A stretch of 22,383 nt of DNA, taken from positions 1-22,383 of the IMG/VR virus record IMGVR_UViG_3300037246_000401; one strand, given 5' to 3'. A program made the translations under genes and the position numbers. The notes beneath the pieces are model-generated. The model saw nothing but the letters and a program-made list of their open reading frames with translations. It did no database searches and was not told where the DNA came from. Below are positions 2,500 to 17,428 of this stretch, in pieces (position 1 is the first letter of the stretch; the number at the start of each line of letters is the position of its first letter). The stretch comes from a virus.

Positions 2500-2576
2500 T
2501 GTACATACCTGTAGAACTTGTGATTATCCTAGCCGTGATATTCATTGTTTTGGCATTGTGTGGGAGTCCTAAATGA
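2499..2576 (+). CDS. 25-residue single-TM micropeptide
   Basis: ATG 2499 overlaps the previous stop by one base (TGATG). The ORF runs 25 codons, encoding MYIPVELVIILAVIFIVLAL and a short CGSPK tail. Almost the entire peptide is one hydrophobic segment. Its stop lies inside an ATGA overlap with the next small membrane ORF. Termination-reinitiation at both ends and the membrane character favour a real product. There is no homology that I can recognise. Confidence 0.45.
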   Translation: MYIPVELVIILAVIFIVLALCGSPK

Positions 2577-2752
2577 CTAAATTCTGGATTGTTATCTTAG
2601 GGGTTGCGTGTATCGTCTTATGGTCGCTGGGGGCCGGGGCGCATTATCATGATGGTGGGCGAATAGGGTCGACGTATGGTATTTGGATTGGCGAAGTGTA
2701 TCACATCTGTACTTATGTGACGCCTATTCAGGTACACTGCGTACCGGGCTGA
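2573..2752 (+). CDS. Small membrane protein (59 aa)
   Basis: The gene starts in an ATGA overlap with the 25-residue micropeptide and ends at TGA 2750-2752. It encodes an N-terminal hydrophobic segment (MTKFWIVILGVACIVLWSLG) followed by about 38 polar residues with two Cys, several His and Tyr. One TM helix with a short outer domain is likely. The last codons lie in the first GGCTGAATACCCCC repeat of the iteron-like region, so the end of the gene and the DNA element overlap. No family is recognised. Confidence 0.45.
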   Translation: MTKFWIVILGVACIVLWSLGAGAHYHDGGRIGSTYGIWIGEVYHICTYVTPIQVHCVPG

Positions 2753-3000
2753 ATACCCCCTGTTTTTTGTGCGATGCAGCACGTTTTGGTGACTAGGGCG
2801 GCGTGGGTACACTCGCAAGTGTACCCACGCTTGGCTGAATACCCCCGCAAAGCTAGGTCCCACGCGACTGGGTACACAGGGTATTCTGGGTATTCTTAAA
2901 ACAAAATATTGATAACACAGTAAATACGTCCTAATCATCACTATATGCTGTATATAAATAAACTGTTTCGCAAGTGTACCCAATACCCACGAATACCCAC
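2747..3000. repeat. Iteron-like cluster flanking an AT-rich stretch (candidate origin or operator array)
   Basis: GGCTGAATACCCCC occurs at 2747-2760 and again at 2833-2846. CGCAAGTGTACCCA occurs at 2814-2827 and 2969-2982. The stretch 2870-2895 carries the same words on the opposite strand (GGGTACAC, then GGGTATTC twice), and 2971-3000 carries GTGTACCC and AATACCC words on the + strand. Between these inverted sets, 2896-2968 is strongly AT-rich with TATA runs. Inverted iteron sets around an AT-rich core are typical of replication origins or multi-operator control regions. No gene is credible here. Function is inferred from layout only. Confidence 0.5.
2801..2830. other. Perfect 13-bp inverted repeat
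   Basis: GCGTGGGTACACT and its exact complement AGTGTACCCACGC are separated by the 4-nt loop CGCA. It could fold as a strong RNA hairpin ending the small-gene operon (weak TTGG tail), or act as a dyad-symmetric binding site. Its right arm contains the GTGTACCC word repeated elsewhere in the cluster, which favours a protein-binding role. Confidence 0.55.
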
Positions 3001-3082
3001 CCCCTTGTGACTGCCCCCCATATACCGGGGATTTGGGGACGACCAGCGACATAACTTAGTGCGTTTGATTTCCGTGAGCATA

Positions 3083-3095: not shown

Positions 3096-3119
3096 CTACT
3101 CTTCCCCCCTGAGACGGAT

Positions 3120-3173
3120 GATCAGGATCAAGATCGGGATCACGATCCTGATCGTCTTCAGGATCGTGATCGA
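3120..3173. repeat. Hexamer-phased GATC array with 14-bp inverted repeat
   Basis: GATC begins at 3120, 3126, 3132, 3138, 3144, 3150, 3162 and 3168, exactly every 6 bp. Only the 3156 position is replaced, by CTTC. Inside it GATCACGATCCTGA (3138-3151) and its exact complement (3158-3171) form a 14-bp stem with a 6-nt loop. An alternative 10-bp pairing joins 3120-3129 to 3144-3153. GATC is the Dam methylation site, so the array would be a dense methylation or SeqA-type target in a Dam-positive host. ORFs across it are low-complexity and not credible. Confidence 0.65.
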
Positions 3174-3515: not shown

Positions 3516-3779
3516 ATGGCACAAGCCAAGAAAGCACCGAAGCCGGAGTACTTGACGCTTGACAAGGGCAAGCCGTACAACCCGCGCACGGACCATACCG
3601 ACAAGGGGTGGGCCAGCCTGAAGCGGTGCATAGAACAGGGCTACACCTACGCTGCCCTGCGAAGCAAGAAGGATACGCCGATTACCGGCAACAACCACAA
3701 TCACCAGTTTGCCGCGTACTGCGTGCGCCGGCATTGGGTGAAGGTGACAACCACGGCCCCGGCGAACGCCAAGGGCTAA
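3516..3779 (+). CDS. Small basic hypothetical protein (87 aa)
   Basis: The start at ATG 3516 is chosen because AGGAAG at 3503-3508 lies 7 nt before it and a candidate promoter ends just upstream. The frame is open further upstream, but that would overlap the promoter. The product has a Lys/Pro-rich N-terminus (MAQAKKAPKPEYLTLDKGKP), then a compact helical-looking part (DKGWASLKRCIEQGYTYAAL) and a basic, His-rich end. It could bind nucleic acid, but no family is recognised. It stands alone between two structured non-coding stretches, so it may be the product controlled by them. Confidence 0.6.
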   Translation: MAQAKKAPKPEYLTLDKGKPYNPRTDHTDKGWASLKRCIEQGYTYAALRSKKDTPITGNNHNHQFAAYCVRRHWVKVTTTAPANAKG

Positions 3780-4357: not shown

Positions 4358-4749
4358 AAATGGAATACAAAAAGATGGACTATAAGAAGGGGTCAAGGCA
4401 TGATGACGTCAGCAATGCGTACTCGGCGTGTGCTACGTGCTACCACTCCAAGGACCGAACTGGAACGTTATGCTGCACGCACCCCGACAAGTCTAAACTC
4501 AAGGTCTACTGCATGGCGAACAATGGAAGCGAGGAGCACTCCAGGGATATGTGCGACTCAACGAATTTCCAGGTAGATGCGAAGGAGTGGTGCGCGAGCT
4601 ACAAGGCTGCGGACGCCCCCGAAGCTCCCGAGTACGAGAATATGTACGAGGCCATGGAATCGGCCTACGAGCAGCATTCACCGACTCCGCACGCTGAGTA
4701 CGGGACTGGAGGAACTGCGAGCGGTACGGGCGCTGGCGGAGCTAGCTAG
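4354..4749 (+). CDS. Cys-rich hypothetical protein (131 aa)
   Basis: The first 85 residues contain at least seven Cys (CATCYHSKD, LCCTHPDK, VYCMANN, MCDST, WCASYK), suggesting a zinc-binding domain. The tail is acidic, then Gly/Thr/Ser-rich and probably disordered. Starts at 4354 or 4360 are possible. AGGAG near 4337 is rather distant, and coupling to the 4205 frame may help. It is the first clear gene of the packaging module and its stop overlaps the next GTG (TAGTG). A role in packaging or nucleic-acid binding is only inferred from position. No family is recognised. Confidence 0.6.
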   Translation: MKMEYKKMDYKKGSRHDDVSNAYSACATCYHSKDRTGTLCCTHPDKSKLKVYCMANNGSEEHSRDMCDSTNFQVDAKEWCASYKAADAPEAPEYENMYEAMESAYEQHSPTPHAEYGTGGTASGTGAGGAS

Positions 4750-5123
4750 TGCCAGATACCACGACCAAGATAGAGTACCTCACTGAAGAGGAACTATTAG
4801 CCAGTGACGAGCAAGCATTGGCCCGTATCTCCGACGCTCCCAAGAACGTACTGCAATTCACCAGAAGCACAAAGGTTACGCGACAAGAAGTTGTCAATGC
4901 GTTTACGAACGCATTCCAGATGATTGGGGGTGTTGACCGGTTGGCGCTGTGGGCAGACCAAAACCCGAGTGAGTTCTACAGATTGTACGGGAAACTTCTC
5001 CCGCCCTCCAACGCTGATATCTTGGACGGCAACCGTGAGTTTATTGTGCGCCACATCCTCCCCCGGCCACAGATTACAGATGCGCAGCACACAGCCATAG
5101 AAGGGGAGTTTACAGAACAATGA
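4749..5123 (+). CDS. Probable terminase small subunit-like protein
   Basis: The GTG start at 4749 overlaps the previous stop (TAGTG), with GGAG about 8 nt upstream. The 124-residue product has a helical core (residues about 46-82) containing VVNAFTNAFQMIGGVDRLAL and then ADQNPSEFYRLYGKLLPPSN. This pattern of A-x2-IGG-x3-LAxWA-x-NPxEFYxLYxKLLP is common in small phage proteins encoded just upstream of terL. Small terminase subunits recognise the packaging site and regulate the large subunit. Assignment as TerS rests on this motif and on position, two genes ahead of TerL. An accessory DNA-binding protein is the alternative. Confidence 0.55.
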   Translation: MPDTTTKIEYLTEEELLASDEQALARISDAPKNVLQFTRSTKVTRQEVVNAFTNAFQMIGGVDRLALWADQNPSEFYRLYGKLLPPSNADILDGNREFIVRHILPRPQITDAQHTAIEGEFTEQ

Positions 5124-5332
5124 ATGAAAAGAGCGCCCTACGAAAAGCGATAGAAGCGGCAATCGCGGCTGTGGGCAAAATTGCGAACAAGGACGCCACG
5201 GTACAGGGGATGCAATATGAGGATAGTCCTAAGCGACCACTGCACCCGAAGAAAAAGAAAGATAAGTCCATGTCTGAATACGGGTACACCCGTGAGCACA
5301 AAAAGGCAATGGAAGATGCCGGGGTGTTGTAG
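5120..5332 (+). CDS. Small basic hypothetical protein (70 aa)
   Basis: The gene starts in an ATGA overlap with the previous gene and shares one base with the large terminase start (TAGTG). The N-terminus is a helix of Ala/Ile/Lys (ALRKAIEAAIAAVGKIANKD). The middle is very basic (RPLHPKKKKDKS) and the end (EYGYTREHKKAMEDAG) is charged. It may contact DNA or the terminase. No family is recognised, and its conserved-looking placement between TerS-like and TerL genes is the only functional hint. Confidence 0.6.
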   Translation: MNEKSALRKAIEAAIAAVGKIANKDATVQGMQYEDSPKRPLHPKKKKDKSMSEYGYTREHKKAMEDAGVL

Positions 5333-6651
5333 TGCCCGAAGTAACGGTAGCGTATGACCCCCGCCCTATTTTCATGCCGTTCCACACGCGGACTCAGCGG
5401 TGGGCAGTCGTGGTGGCGCATAGACGATGTGGTAAGACTGTTGCCACCATTAACGATATCGTAAGCCACGCGCTATATACGGAAAAGAAAAGAGCAAGGT
5501 TTGGTTATATCGCCCCTTACTATAGCCAAGCAAAACAGATTGCCTGGGACTACCTCGTTGAGTATACGAAAGAAATCGCCACCAAGGTCTCAATATCCAG
5601 CCTTTCCGTTGACCTATTCAACGGTGCGAGAATTACCCTCTACGGTGCCGATAATCCCGATGCTTTCCGCGGGTTGTATTTTGACGGTGTGGTTATCGAC
5701 GAGTACGGCGATTGCCGCCCCAACCTGTGGACGGAGATTATCCGGCCCGCTCTGGCAGATAGACGTGGCTGGGCCACGTTCATTGGCACGCCCAACGGTC
5801 TGAACCACTTTTACGATATCTGGAATTTTGCCCTGGCCCACCCCGATAGGTGGTACACGGAAGCACTGCCTCAGAGCAAGACCAACATTCTCGACGCGGA
5901 CGAAGTCGAAGAAATGCGGTCAATGATGGATGAAGATGAATTTGACCAAGAGATCGAATGTAGCTTTATGGCAGCTACTCGTGGAGCCTATTATTCACGG
6001 GAACTCAAGAATGCTGTTATTGGCTCTTATCCTGTGGATCCCAGTCGGCCTTGTCATTATGTGTTTGATCTCGGTTATACTGATAGCACGGCTATTTGGC
6101 GCTGGCAAGAGTACCCCGACGCCATTGAACTCAGCTTGAGTTATGAACAAGATTCCCGGCCTATTCAGTATTACATTGACTGGCTGCACTCTCAGCGGAC
6201 AGCCGGTATTACGCCTGGAGAGGTGTGGCTGCCCCATGACGCGCTCGCCAAAACACTCCAGACTGGTAGAAGTATTGTCGAGCAGTTCCTCTCGGGTGGG
6301 ATTCGGCCTAAAGTTGTCGCGAAACTTGATTTGCTGGACGGAATACAAGCGGCAAGGCAGATTTTCCCAAAGCTAGCATTTGACGCGGAAGGATGTAAGG
6401 ATGGCCTACTCGCATTGCGTTCGTACAAGCGCACTTGGAATCCAGACCGCAATGAATACAGCGCCAAGCCATTACATGACTGGTCTAGCAATTTTGCTGA
6501 CTCTTTCCGCTATTTCGCATTAGTTGCTGGACTTGAAGATCCAAGTAAAACTGCTTTAATCCCGGCACAGCCTTTTGCTCGTCCTTTATACGGGTTTACA
6601 TTAGATGAGGCTTGGGAGTGTGGGCCGTCGGGAAGGGACTCCTGGCACTAA
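5332..6651 (+). CDS. terL: Terminase large subunit (packaging ATPase and nuclease)
   Basis: The 439-residue product has the full terminase layout. The Walker A-type loop is AHRRCGKT (residues 29-36), Walker B is VVIDE (120-124), and the motif III-like segment is FIGTPNG (150-156). The C-terminal nuclease domain opens with YVFDLGYTDSTAIW (Asp 246 and Asp 251) and ends with HDWSSNFADSFRYF, carrying another acidic catalytic position. TerL docks on the portal, uses ATP to pump DNA into the procapsid and cuts the concatemer. Its length is normal for the family. It starts with GTG overlapping the upstream stop, and its own stop overlaps the next ATG (TAATG), so it belongs to a tightly coupled operon. 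Confidence 0.95.
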   Translation: MPEVTVAYDPRPIFMPFHTRTQRWAVVVAHRRCGKTVATINDIVSHALYTEKKRARFGYIAPYYSQAKQIAWDYLVEYTKEIATKVSISSLSVDLFNGARITLYGADNPDAFRGLYFDGVVIDEYGDCRPNLWTEIIRPALADRRGWATFIGTPNGLNHFYDIWNFALAHPDRWYTEALPQSKTNILDADEVEEMRSMMDEDEFDQEIECSFMAATRGAYYSRELKNAVIGSYPVDPSRPCHYVFDLGYTDSTAIWRWQEYPDAIELSLSYEQDSRPIQYYIDWLHSQRTAGITPGEVWLPHDALAKTLQTGRSIVEQFLSGGIRPKVVAKLDLLDGIQAARQIFPKLAFDAEGCKDGLLALRSYKRTWNPDRNEYSAKPLHDWSSNFADSFRYFALVAGLEDPSKTALIPAQPFARPLYGFTLDEAWECGPSGRDSWH

Positions 6652-15748: not shown

Positions 15749-17428
15749 GTGGATGGCTTTATCGGCGGAGTCTATAGAAGGCTCCGCCACCCTTCTACAT
15801 ACCACCTCAGGAGGCTGTTTACAGCCTTCTTGCTCGCTCCTGCGGCTATTGTTATTGGAGCAGAGGGTGGGTCATACGCGCACACAGGAACCGCAGCTAG
15901 CACTGAGCACCACTCTCTTATTAACGCGGAAGGTGGCACGTACTCGGTTAGTGGAACGGACGCTAACACTGAGCACCACTCCCTTATTGACGCGGAAGGT
16001 GGCACGTATGTCATCTCAGGAACAGACGCTAGCCTTGAGCATCACTCTCTTGTCGGAGCTGATGGTGGCTCATACGCCATCACAGGGACGGACGCTAATA
16101 CTGAGCATCACTCGGTTATTGACGCCGCTGGTGGCTCGTATGCTATCACGGGTACAGACGCCAGCCTTGAACACCATTCGGCTCTCGATGCTGCGGGCGG
16201 TTCGTACGCAGTTACCGGCACAGCGGCTGATCTCTTACACCAAGCCCTTGTCGGAGCTGACGGAGGTTCGTATACAATTACTGGCGCTGATGCTGGGACG
16301 GCTATCAGCGTACTCATATCGGCAGATGGCGGCTCTTACGCCATCACTGGAACCGCAGCTAGCCTCGAACATCACTCCCTTATCAGCGCAGTTGGTGGTA
16401 CGTACTCAGTATCAGGAACTGACGCCAACCTTGAACACCACAGAGTTATCTCTGCGGTTGGCGGCACGTATGCCATCACTGGCACAGATGCGAGCCTTGA
16501 GCACCACAGTCTCATCGATGCCGCAGGTGGCACGTATGCGATCACCGGCACTGACGCCAACACCGAACATAACAGTATCCTTGGCGCAGATAGTGGGTCG
16601 TATGCAATCAGCGGTACCGACATCCTTACGGCTGTCAGCGTACTCATATCGGCAGATGGCGGCTCGTACACTGTTACCGGCACGGCTGCGGCCCTTAGAC
16701 ACAATCGGGTTATCGGCGCAGATGGCGGTTCGTACTCAGTCACTGGCACCGCAGCCAACACCGAACATCACTCCGTACTTGGCGCAGACGGTGGCTCGTA
16801 CTCCGTTACTGGTACCGCAGCCAATCTGGAGCATCACCTTGTTCTTGCAGCCGCAGGTGGCGCGTACTCAATCACTGGTACGGCTGCTAACACTGAGCAC
16901 CACTCAGTTCTTAGTGCTGCTGGCGGCACGTATGCGATTACTGGTACAGACGCCGACCTTACAGTTAGCTTTGAAGATACCATATCGGCGGAGGGTGGGT
17001 CTTACGTTATCTCTGGTACAGCCGCTGACCTCATTGCCACGGGAGGCGTGGGGGACAACATCCACTTGGCTGGCACGCTGGTCACTGGAGAAGGTGTTGT
17101 GGGTACAGAAGTGCTATTCGTCCCGTCCAGTCCTTTGCCCGCAGATGTTGTGTATATTGCGGGCAGCGCGCATACTAACGCAGGACTACTCTACGTTGTC
17201 ATCGAGGATGGCTTAATGGATCGCGTGTTTATTCGAGGAATAGCGCATAGGCCAGACGGAGTGAGGATAATAGAGAATACCTTGGCCGGTGACCATGTCA
17301 TTGGTGGATGGCAGGTGACAAACCTGGGAGCTCAAAATGTCGAATACGATGTAGTTCCCCTAACCTTCTTTAATTGGGGTAGGGCTATTGATCCAGATAG
17401 TAAGATGCGCACTACCGCTCTCATCTGA
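15749..17428 (+). CDS. Tandem-repeat virion protein with eighteen 22-residue units
   Basis: The frame starts at GTG 15749 with a weak ribosome site. The N-terminal 39 residues include YRRLRHPSTYHLRRLFTAFL. From residue 40 (nt 15866) to about 437, eighteen units follow with consensus GGSYAITGTDAxxEHHSLIxA. All are 22 residues except unit 17, which has 24. Eleven units carry EHH, and three more keep a single His at that place. The C-terminus (about 120 residues) has a different motif, as in AGSAHTNAGLLYVV. The repeats alternate strand-like GSYxIxGT with a short turn, suggesting a beta-solenoid or stacked fibre. A tail or surface fibre function is inferred. DNA copies differ mainly at third codon positions, so selection acts on protein. 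Confidence 0.75.
   Translation: MDGFIGGVYRRLRHPSTYHLRRLFTAFLLAPAAIVIGAEGGSYAHTGTAASTEHHSLINAEGGTYSVSGTDANTEHHSLIDAEGGTYVISGTDASLEHHSLVGADGGSYAITGTDANTEHHSVIDAAGGSYAITGTDASLEHHSALDAAGGSYAVTGTAADLLHQALVGADGGSYTITGADAGTAISVLISADGGSYAITGTAASLEHHSLISAVGGTYSVSGTDANLEHHRVISAVGGTYAITGTDASLEHHSLIDAAGGTYAITGTDANTEHNSILGADSGSYAISGTDILTAVSVLISADGGSYTVTGTAAALRHNRVIGADGGSYSVTGTAANTEHHSVLGADGGSYSVTGTAANLEHHLVLAAAGGAYSITGTAANTEHHSVLSAAGGTYAITGTDADLTVSFEDTISAEGGSYVISGTAADLIATGGVGDNIHLAGTLVTGEGVVGTEVLFVPSSPLPADVVYIAGSAHTNAGLLYVVIEDGLMDRVFIRGIAHRPDGVRIIENTLAGDHVIGGWQVTNLGAQNVEYDVVPLTFFNWGRAIDPDSKMRTTALI
15866..17059 (+). repeat. 66-bp coding tandem repeat array
   Basis: Eighteen units with a 66-bp period encode the 22-residue repeats of the protein above. 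Two stretches of 30 identical bases (16306-16335 and 16636-16665) are exactly 330 bp, or five units, apart. This suggests a higher-order duplication or gene conversion on top of older diverged copies. Confidence 0.8.

Follow-up and report, generated by a model that had tools for sequence, protein, structure and literature searches.

We analyzed a stretch of phage DNA of 22,383 nucleotides (here called the window, at its full length) and found that a row of eight GATC sites at exact 6-bp steps is a real, non-coding DNA element whose architecture is conserved among related phages. The non-coding sequence that holds the array is bounded by a probable iteron origin (about positions 2750 to 3000) and by g87, a gene for a small basic protein. 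Phased tetramers recur at this position in the relatives, and the switch between GATC and TCGA is independent of the iteron or helicase type. From sequence comparison we tentatively favor the reading that the array lies beside the origin as a row of putative sites to which a DNA-binding phage protein, possibly g87, would attach, although we stop short of calling it probable. A preliminary description of this DNA had listed a protein target and an origin element among several possible roles, and both gain support at the DNA level from the non-coding nature of the array, the adjoining iteron-like repeats, and the phased tetramers in relatives.

Phage genome and surroundings of the array

The window represents part of the genome of an uncultured phage, and another record (G002; 40,186 bp) is 99.9% identical to it over the shared part. 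The capsid and portal proteins have distant relatives in Stenotrophomonas phage BUCT555 and Myxococcus phages Mx8 and Mx9. A nucleotide search against known phages gave no match, and a genome scan for the host returned two partial MAG matches at 45 to 46% identity, and no host was assigned. The features of the window considered below are as follows.

2573..2752, plus strand: 59-aa gene, left of the origin; among the relatives, homologues in L141 and L146 only
2752..3000, no strand: probable replication origin with AATACCC and GTGTACCC repeats, assigned by resemblance only
3055..3068, minus strand: TCAAACGC-ACTAAG box; in relatives, TCAAACGC..CACTAA next to phased pairs
3120..3171, no strand: GATC array, eight sites at 6-bp steps, from sequence reading and shuffles
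3120-3129 with 3144-3153, no strand: alternative 10-bp perfect pairing, inside the array
3138-3151 with 3158-3171, no strand: 14-bp perfect inverted repeat with a 6-nt loop, not common to relatives
3516..3779, plus strand: g87, small basic protein (87 aa), helix-turn-helix-like by prediction; in relatives, homologues next to the origin
4749..5123, plus strand: 124-aa gene, presumed small terminase, function by position only
5332..6651, plus strand: terminase large subunit (TerL), the query for finding relatives

The AATACCC and GTGTACCC repeats occur in both orientations and flank an A+T-richer core (about 2896-2968). Genes for PolA, an SNF2-type helicase, and a 702-aa DUF5906/VapE-like helicase lie upstream, and a DUF5906/VapE-like protein is encoded in seven of eight relatives. 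In P4-type origins, a primase-helicase binds iterons around an A+T-rich core. By analogy, given that a VapE/DUF5906-type helicase is encoded upstream and that iteron-like repeats stand inverted on either side of such a core, the iteron region is probably a P4-type replication origin; to our knowledge, a phased palindrome strip is not among the known parts of the P4 origin. An A+T-rich core flanked by iterons in both orientations was also read by eye in L148, L161, L163, and L169, and relatives show the same layout with other repeats (GATGTAAC in L148 and L142, GGTAGCC in L163 and L161, and GGTGGCAG in L169).

The order of iterons, A+T-rich core, and inverted iterons to the left of g87 was seen in L148, L153, L154, L161, L163, L164, and L169. 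The iteron sequence differs in nearly every lineage, which suggests an origin family whose iterons change with the helicase. Elsewhere in the window, positions 15883-16912 hold 66-bp tandem coding repeats in the gene for a 559-aa structural-looking protein with GTYxISGTDAxxEHHSxI repeats.

Spacing and composition of the array

GATC starts at positions 3120, 3126, 3132, 3138, 3144, 3150, 3162, and 3168, and the failed slot at 3156-3159 reads CTTC. The dinucleotides that follow the slots vary (AG, AA, GG, AC, CT, GT, AG, and GT), while GATC is constant. Eight phased sites with a single failed slot, as first described, were borne out statistically: the nine slots hold eight GATC, against a maximum of three in 2,000 first-order Markov shuffles of the window. 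A genome-wide GATC count, which the preliminary description had proposed, shows that the array stands out from a GATC-poor genome. Outside the array the window has 48 GATC, with about 76 expected in the whole window from dinucleotide shuffles, and in 36 kb of this phage with the origin-to-g87 segment left out we counted 63 against 117 expected (ratio, 0.54). GATC is the most depleted of the 16 palindromic tetramers in those same 36 kb.

In the contiguous run of six sites, no two of the five spacers are alike, while GATC is invariant. Among 121 GATC arrays from viral contigs, only one other has a contiguous run in which every spacer differs, that of L106, a 12.4-kb record of the same phage. Since GATC is constant and the spacers are free, selection appears to act on the DNA tetramer, and neither slippage nor selection at the protein level is an adequate explanation.

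These properties bear on whether the array is a functionless stretch, due to low-complexity sequence that arose by chance or to a translated repeat, which we consider quite improbable. GATC hexamer arrays are in fact frequent in viral contigs, and a 102-aa open frame spans the present one. The viral arrays are mostly coding repeats (DP, GS, and DQ) which likewise have GATC every 6 bp, but they lie in long genes and have near-identical spacers of one or two dinucleotides, whereas this array is intergenic, its spacers are varied, and relatives have phased tetramers at this locus as well. The GATC frame would encode DQDQDRDHDPDRLQDRDR, and no ATG, GTG, or TTG occurs from the stop at 3081 to the array. 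Besides, L006, which is 88% identical, carries a deletion of about 45 bp, other indels, and stops in the overlapping frames; this record starts just 3' of the array, and the frame comparison covers the downstream part only. A translated low-complexity segment, the outcome named beforehand as speaking against a DNA element, was thus looked for and rejected, because no open frame is conserved through the array and the overlapping frames are lost in L006.

The same locus in related phages

Searches with the terminase yielded about 140 non-redundant loci totaling 1.21 Mb. The eight closest loci, including the window, span the stretch from the iterons to g87; these segments total 2.7 kb, and their borders were drawn by eye once the pattern was known. 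L148 and L149 are near-identical, so that the eight represent seven independent loci. All eight contain at least two pairs in which the same palindromic tetramer recurs 6 bp apart, formed by GATC in the window, L142, L148, and L149 and by TCGA in L141, L146, L165, and L169. The search of related phages suggested in the preliminary description therefore succeeded in every locus covering the segment with respect to the 6-bp phase, while GATC itself is not conserved as the repeat unit.

The enrichment is strong for both tetramers. GATC-NN-GATC occurs 15 times in the 2.7 kb of segment and 21 times in the 1.21 Mb elsewhere (324-fold), and TCGA-NN-TCGA occurs 9 and 31 times, respectively (132-fold). 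When any tetramer at any spacing from 4 to 15 was counted, the observed number was matched by at most 0.2% of within-segment dinucleotide shuffles for seven loci and by 4.1% for L165. Among the 140 loci, every 6-bp cluster of GATC or TCGA sits at the origin-g87 locus. In addition, pair-to-pair distances of 32 and 38 bp are common to L141, a TCGA phage, and the GATC phages L148 and L149, and those in L142 are 37 and 38 bp. The TCAAACGC box is enriched 38-fold in the segment, with six copies in five of the eight loci, and is inverted in the window; TCAAACG lies near the phased pairs in six of the eight. Phased pairs are absent from L153, L154, L158, L161, L163, and L164 (TerL near 60%), in which iterons and g87 are present.

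Other repeats were also observed in this region. L153, L154, L158, L161, and L164 carry a conserved non-coding motif, GATTTGGCGATTTNC(A/G)TC, after the iterons and to the left of g87. L142 has CAACCTAAACGATTA repeats near g87 (positions 950-1140), and L159 has a 28- to 29-bp tandem repeat at positions 1-120.

g87 and the tetramer switch

The structure model of g87 has a pLDDT of 79.5. A structure search with two g87 models gave no significant match, with Ebp1/PA2G4 and RNA polymerase III winged-helix domains at E values above 1; thus, the term helix-turn-helix is a reading of the predicted helices. Comparison of g87 with PHROGs and Pfam gave no family, and additional scans for its relatives added no further loci. 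In the window, g87 is encoded on the plus strand, but in its closest relatives, L141, L142, L146, L148, L149, and L165, it is on the minus strand, and the array stays to its left, which amounts to a local inversion.

The replication genes and the tetramer group the window differently. Its helicase is 62% identical to that of L141 (TCGA) versus 55% to that of L149 (GATC), and its iterons are of the same type as those of L141. In the TerL tree, the window is placed, with strong support, outside the group of the other five close phages, a position that requires two changes of the GATC label. The g87 tree, on the other hand, joins the four GATC phages (91/96, and 90% of bootstraps), just under the strict support mark of the program, and by BLAST the window g87 is equally close to the GATC and TCGA groups (33 to 39% identity). 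We regard the grouping of the window g87 with GATC phages as moderately supported. In the alignment, TYA..., K...IT, and a longer loop preceding the last helix are common to the GATC phages, whereas L141 and L146 of the TCGA phages have TLA.MG and a shorter loop; in the model, these distinguishing residues fall between the predicted helices. Because the iterons and helicase match TCGA phages while the tetramer and g87 match GATC phages, the specificity of the array seems separable from the initiator. Thus, g87 is the best candidate for the reader of the array, with one informative switch behind its candidacy.

Hairpins within the array

The 14-bp inverted repeat and the alternative 10-bp pairing of the preliminary description are both present at the size it gave, and 19-nt arms at 3117-3135 and 3138-3156 are 84% complementary. 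Such pairing is largely automatic, since GATC is palindromic and arrays of it are self-complementary; a stem of at least 14 bp appeared in 1.2% of simulated GATC arrays with random NN spacers. The predicted RNA fold has an energy of -30.8 kcal/mol (z = -2.3 against shuffles). In the eight-locus comparison, the hairpin was absent from the phased sites of the relatives, and an Rfam search gave no match. The earlier suggestion of a structured RNA is accordingly unsupported, and we rejected RNA structure as a conserved feature; the 14-bp hairpin is a modest extra specific to the window.

A terminator or attenuator hairpin lying between the origin and g87 would suit the 14-bp stem and its alternative pairing, but we judge it very unlikely. 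The T tract is missing after the stem, where the sequence is GACGTATTACTATATG; a terminator scan was negative; relatives lack such a hairpin at their phased sites and have only ordinary g87 terminators; and the fold is just 2.3 standard deviations under the shuffles. The array thus lacks the T tract that should follow the G+C-rich stem of an intrinsic terminator, and this reading was rejected.

A proposed protein-binding strip and its alternatives

Each site is a 4-bp palindrome with its neighbors 6 bp away, an arrangement that a small dimeric protein could coat cooperatively. With a 6-bp step, adjacent sites look toward nearly opposite sides of the helix, and small dimers could therefore wrap the DNA. 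The coated row could act on the adjacent origin by opening it or by timing or shutting off initiation, and it could also, or instead, act on g87 and its neighbors. That a protein binds, which one it is, how it affects replication, and that the iteron region is the origin are all inferred here; the reader would most likely be g87 or another phage protein and not a host methylation system. By analogy, the general kind of element would be a known one, namely short sites for a protein, repeated at the origin or packaging locus of a phage. The strict 6-bp register and the tetramer switch set it apart from the named elements, and we place it outside the pac, oriC, and P4 families.

The chief rival to such an origin-side array is a packaging initiation site like that of P1, of which the array would be all or a part, with the terminase recognizing the phased sites and cutting nearby. 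The P1 pac site is 161 bp long and has seven TGATCA/G hexamers, which are bound by the packaging enzyme (PMC10028697). These hexamers carry GATC, which makes a packaging role a serious rival, and the earlier remark that no named phage element has this form was only partly right. The array lies 1.6 kb to the left of the presumed small terminase gene, and contigs of close relatives show a strong excess of ends 0 to 2.5 kb left of TerL over the right side; in the close group, 17 of 18 contigs have their left end nearer to TerL (P = 1.4e-4), whereas the more distant group is unbiased. Besides, long contigs are mutually permuted (the helicase is at the end of G006), as headful packaging predicts. 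However, P1 pac lies within a terminase gene, pacA, with its hexamers in two blocks, while here eight sites in a single strict register adjoin iterons and a different gene, and another gene stands between the array and the presumed small terminase gene. The contig ends are also scattered and may simply mark a variable region that is hard to assemble. P1 encodes Dam (PMC6449724), whereas no methylase gene was found here and relatives use TCGA. On balance, we consider a packaging site unlikely, though less so than the remaining alternatives.

According to one of these, the array is a methylation switch, in which host Dam methylates GATC and a SeqA-like protein or an initiator reads the state, as at E. 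coli oriC or Vibrio oriII. The dense GATC beside an iteron origin does resemble Vibrio cholerae oriII and E. coli oriC (PMC2865523), and sites five steps (30 bp) apart approach the helical phasing requirement of SeqA (PMC5145175). Dam methylation and SeqA matter at those origins, but the present sites follow a 6-bp register, TCGA without any GATC array occupies this locus in half of the relatives, GATC is depleted in the remaining genome, and the phage thymine is probably hypermodified. In six phage records, Dam (PF05869), MethyltransfD12 (PF02086), and N6_N4_Mtase (PF01555) gave no match. With TCGA in place of GATC in relatives and no methylase found, the SeqA or Dam target put forward in the preliminary description is unsupported as a general mechanism, though host Dam may act on this one phage, and we give it little credence.

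The thymine itself offers a further alternative. At L213:674-3403 (G002), neighboring genes encode a thymidylate-synthase-like protein, a 5-hmdU kinase (PF18723), and a TET-associated (TAGT) glycosyltransferase. The presence of these modification genes in a record near-identical to the window, together with a 5-hmdU kinase in six of eight relatives searched, suggests that the phage thymine is hypermodified and possibly glycosylated. Related 5-hmdU kinases prefer TC and TG (PMC6449724), and no palindromic tetramer other than GATC and TCGA contains TC; both types of array would thus be symmetric modification sites. The array would then be a strip of hypermodified thymines on both strands every 6 bp, which would mark or loosen the origin or let a phage protein distinguish phage from host DNA. 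The density of TC/GA in the segment exceeds that of the locus in most array phages, and other dinucleotides do not show this. Masking the phased tetramers, however, abolishes the excess in the GATC phages and L169, which leaves no independent evidence in these phages, and array-less relatives carry the kinase too. General TC/GA richness as a separate signal was rejected for the same reason, and we hold the modified strip to be improbable. A broader proposal, in which phages with hypermodified thymine carry an origin-side strip of TC palindromes at 6-bp steps that switches between GATC and TCGA and is read, perhaps in its modified state, by a fast-evolving g87, seems to us doubtful.

Significance

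Returning to the protein-binding strip, we note that its architecture is conserved while its letters vary, which would make it a natural system for joint change of specificity in a small DNA-binding protein and its sites. The array may also serve as a landmark by which to recognize the origin in a group of uncultured phages whose capsid proteins are related to those of Mx8 and BUCT555. Should the array be read with its thymines modified, thymine hypermodification, until now regarded as an anti-restriction measure, would be tied to replication control, and phage origins would be distinguishable from host DNA.
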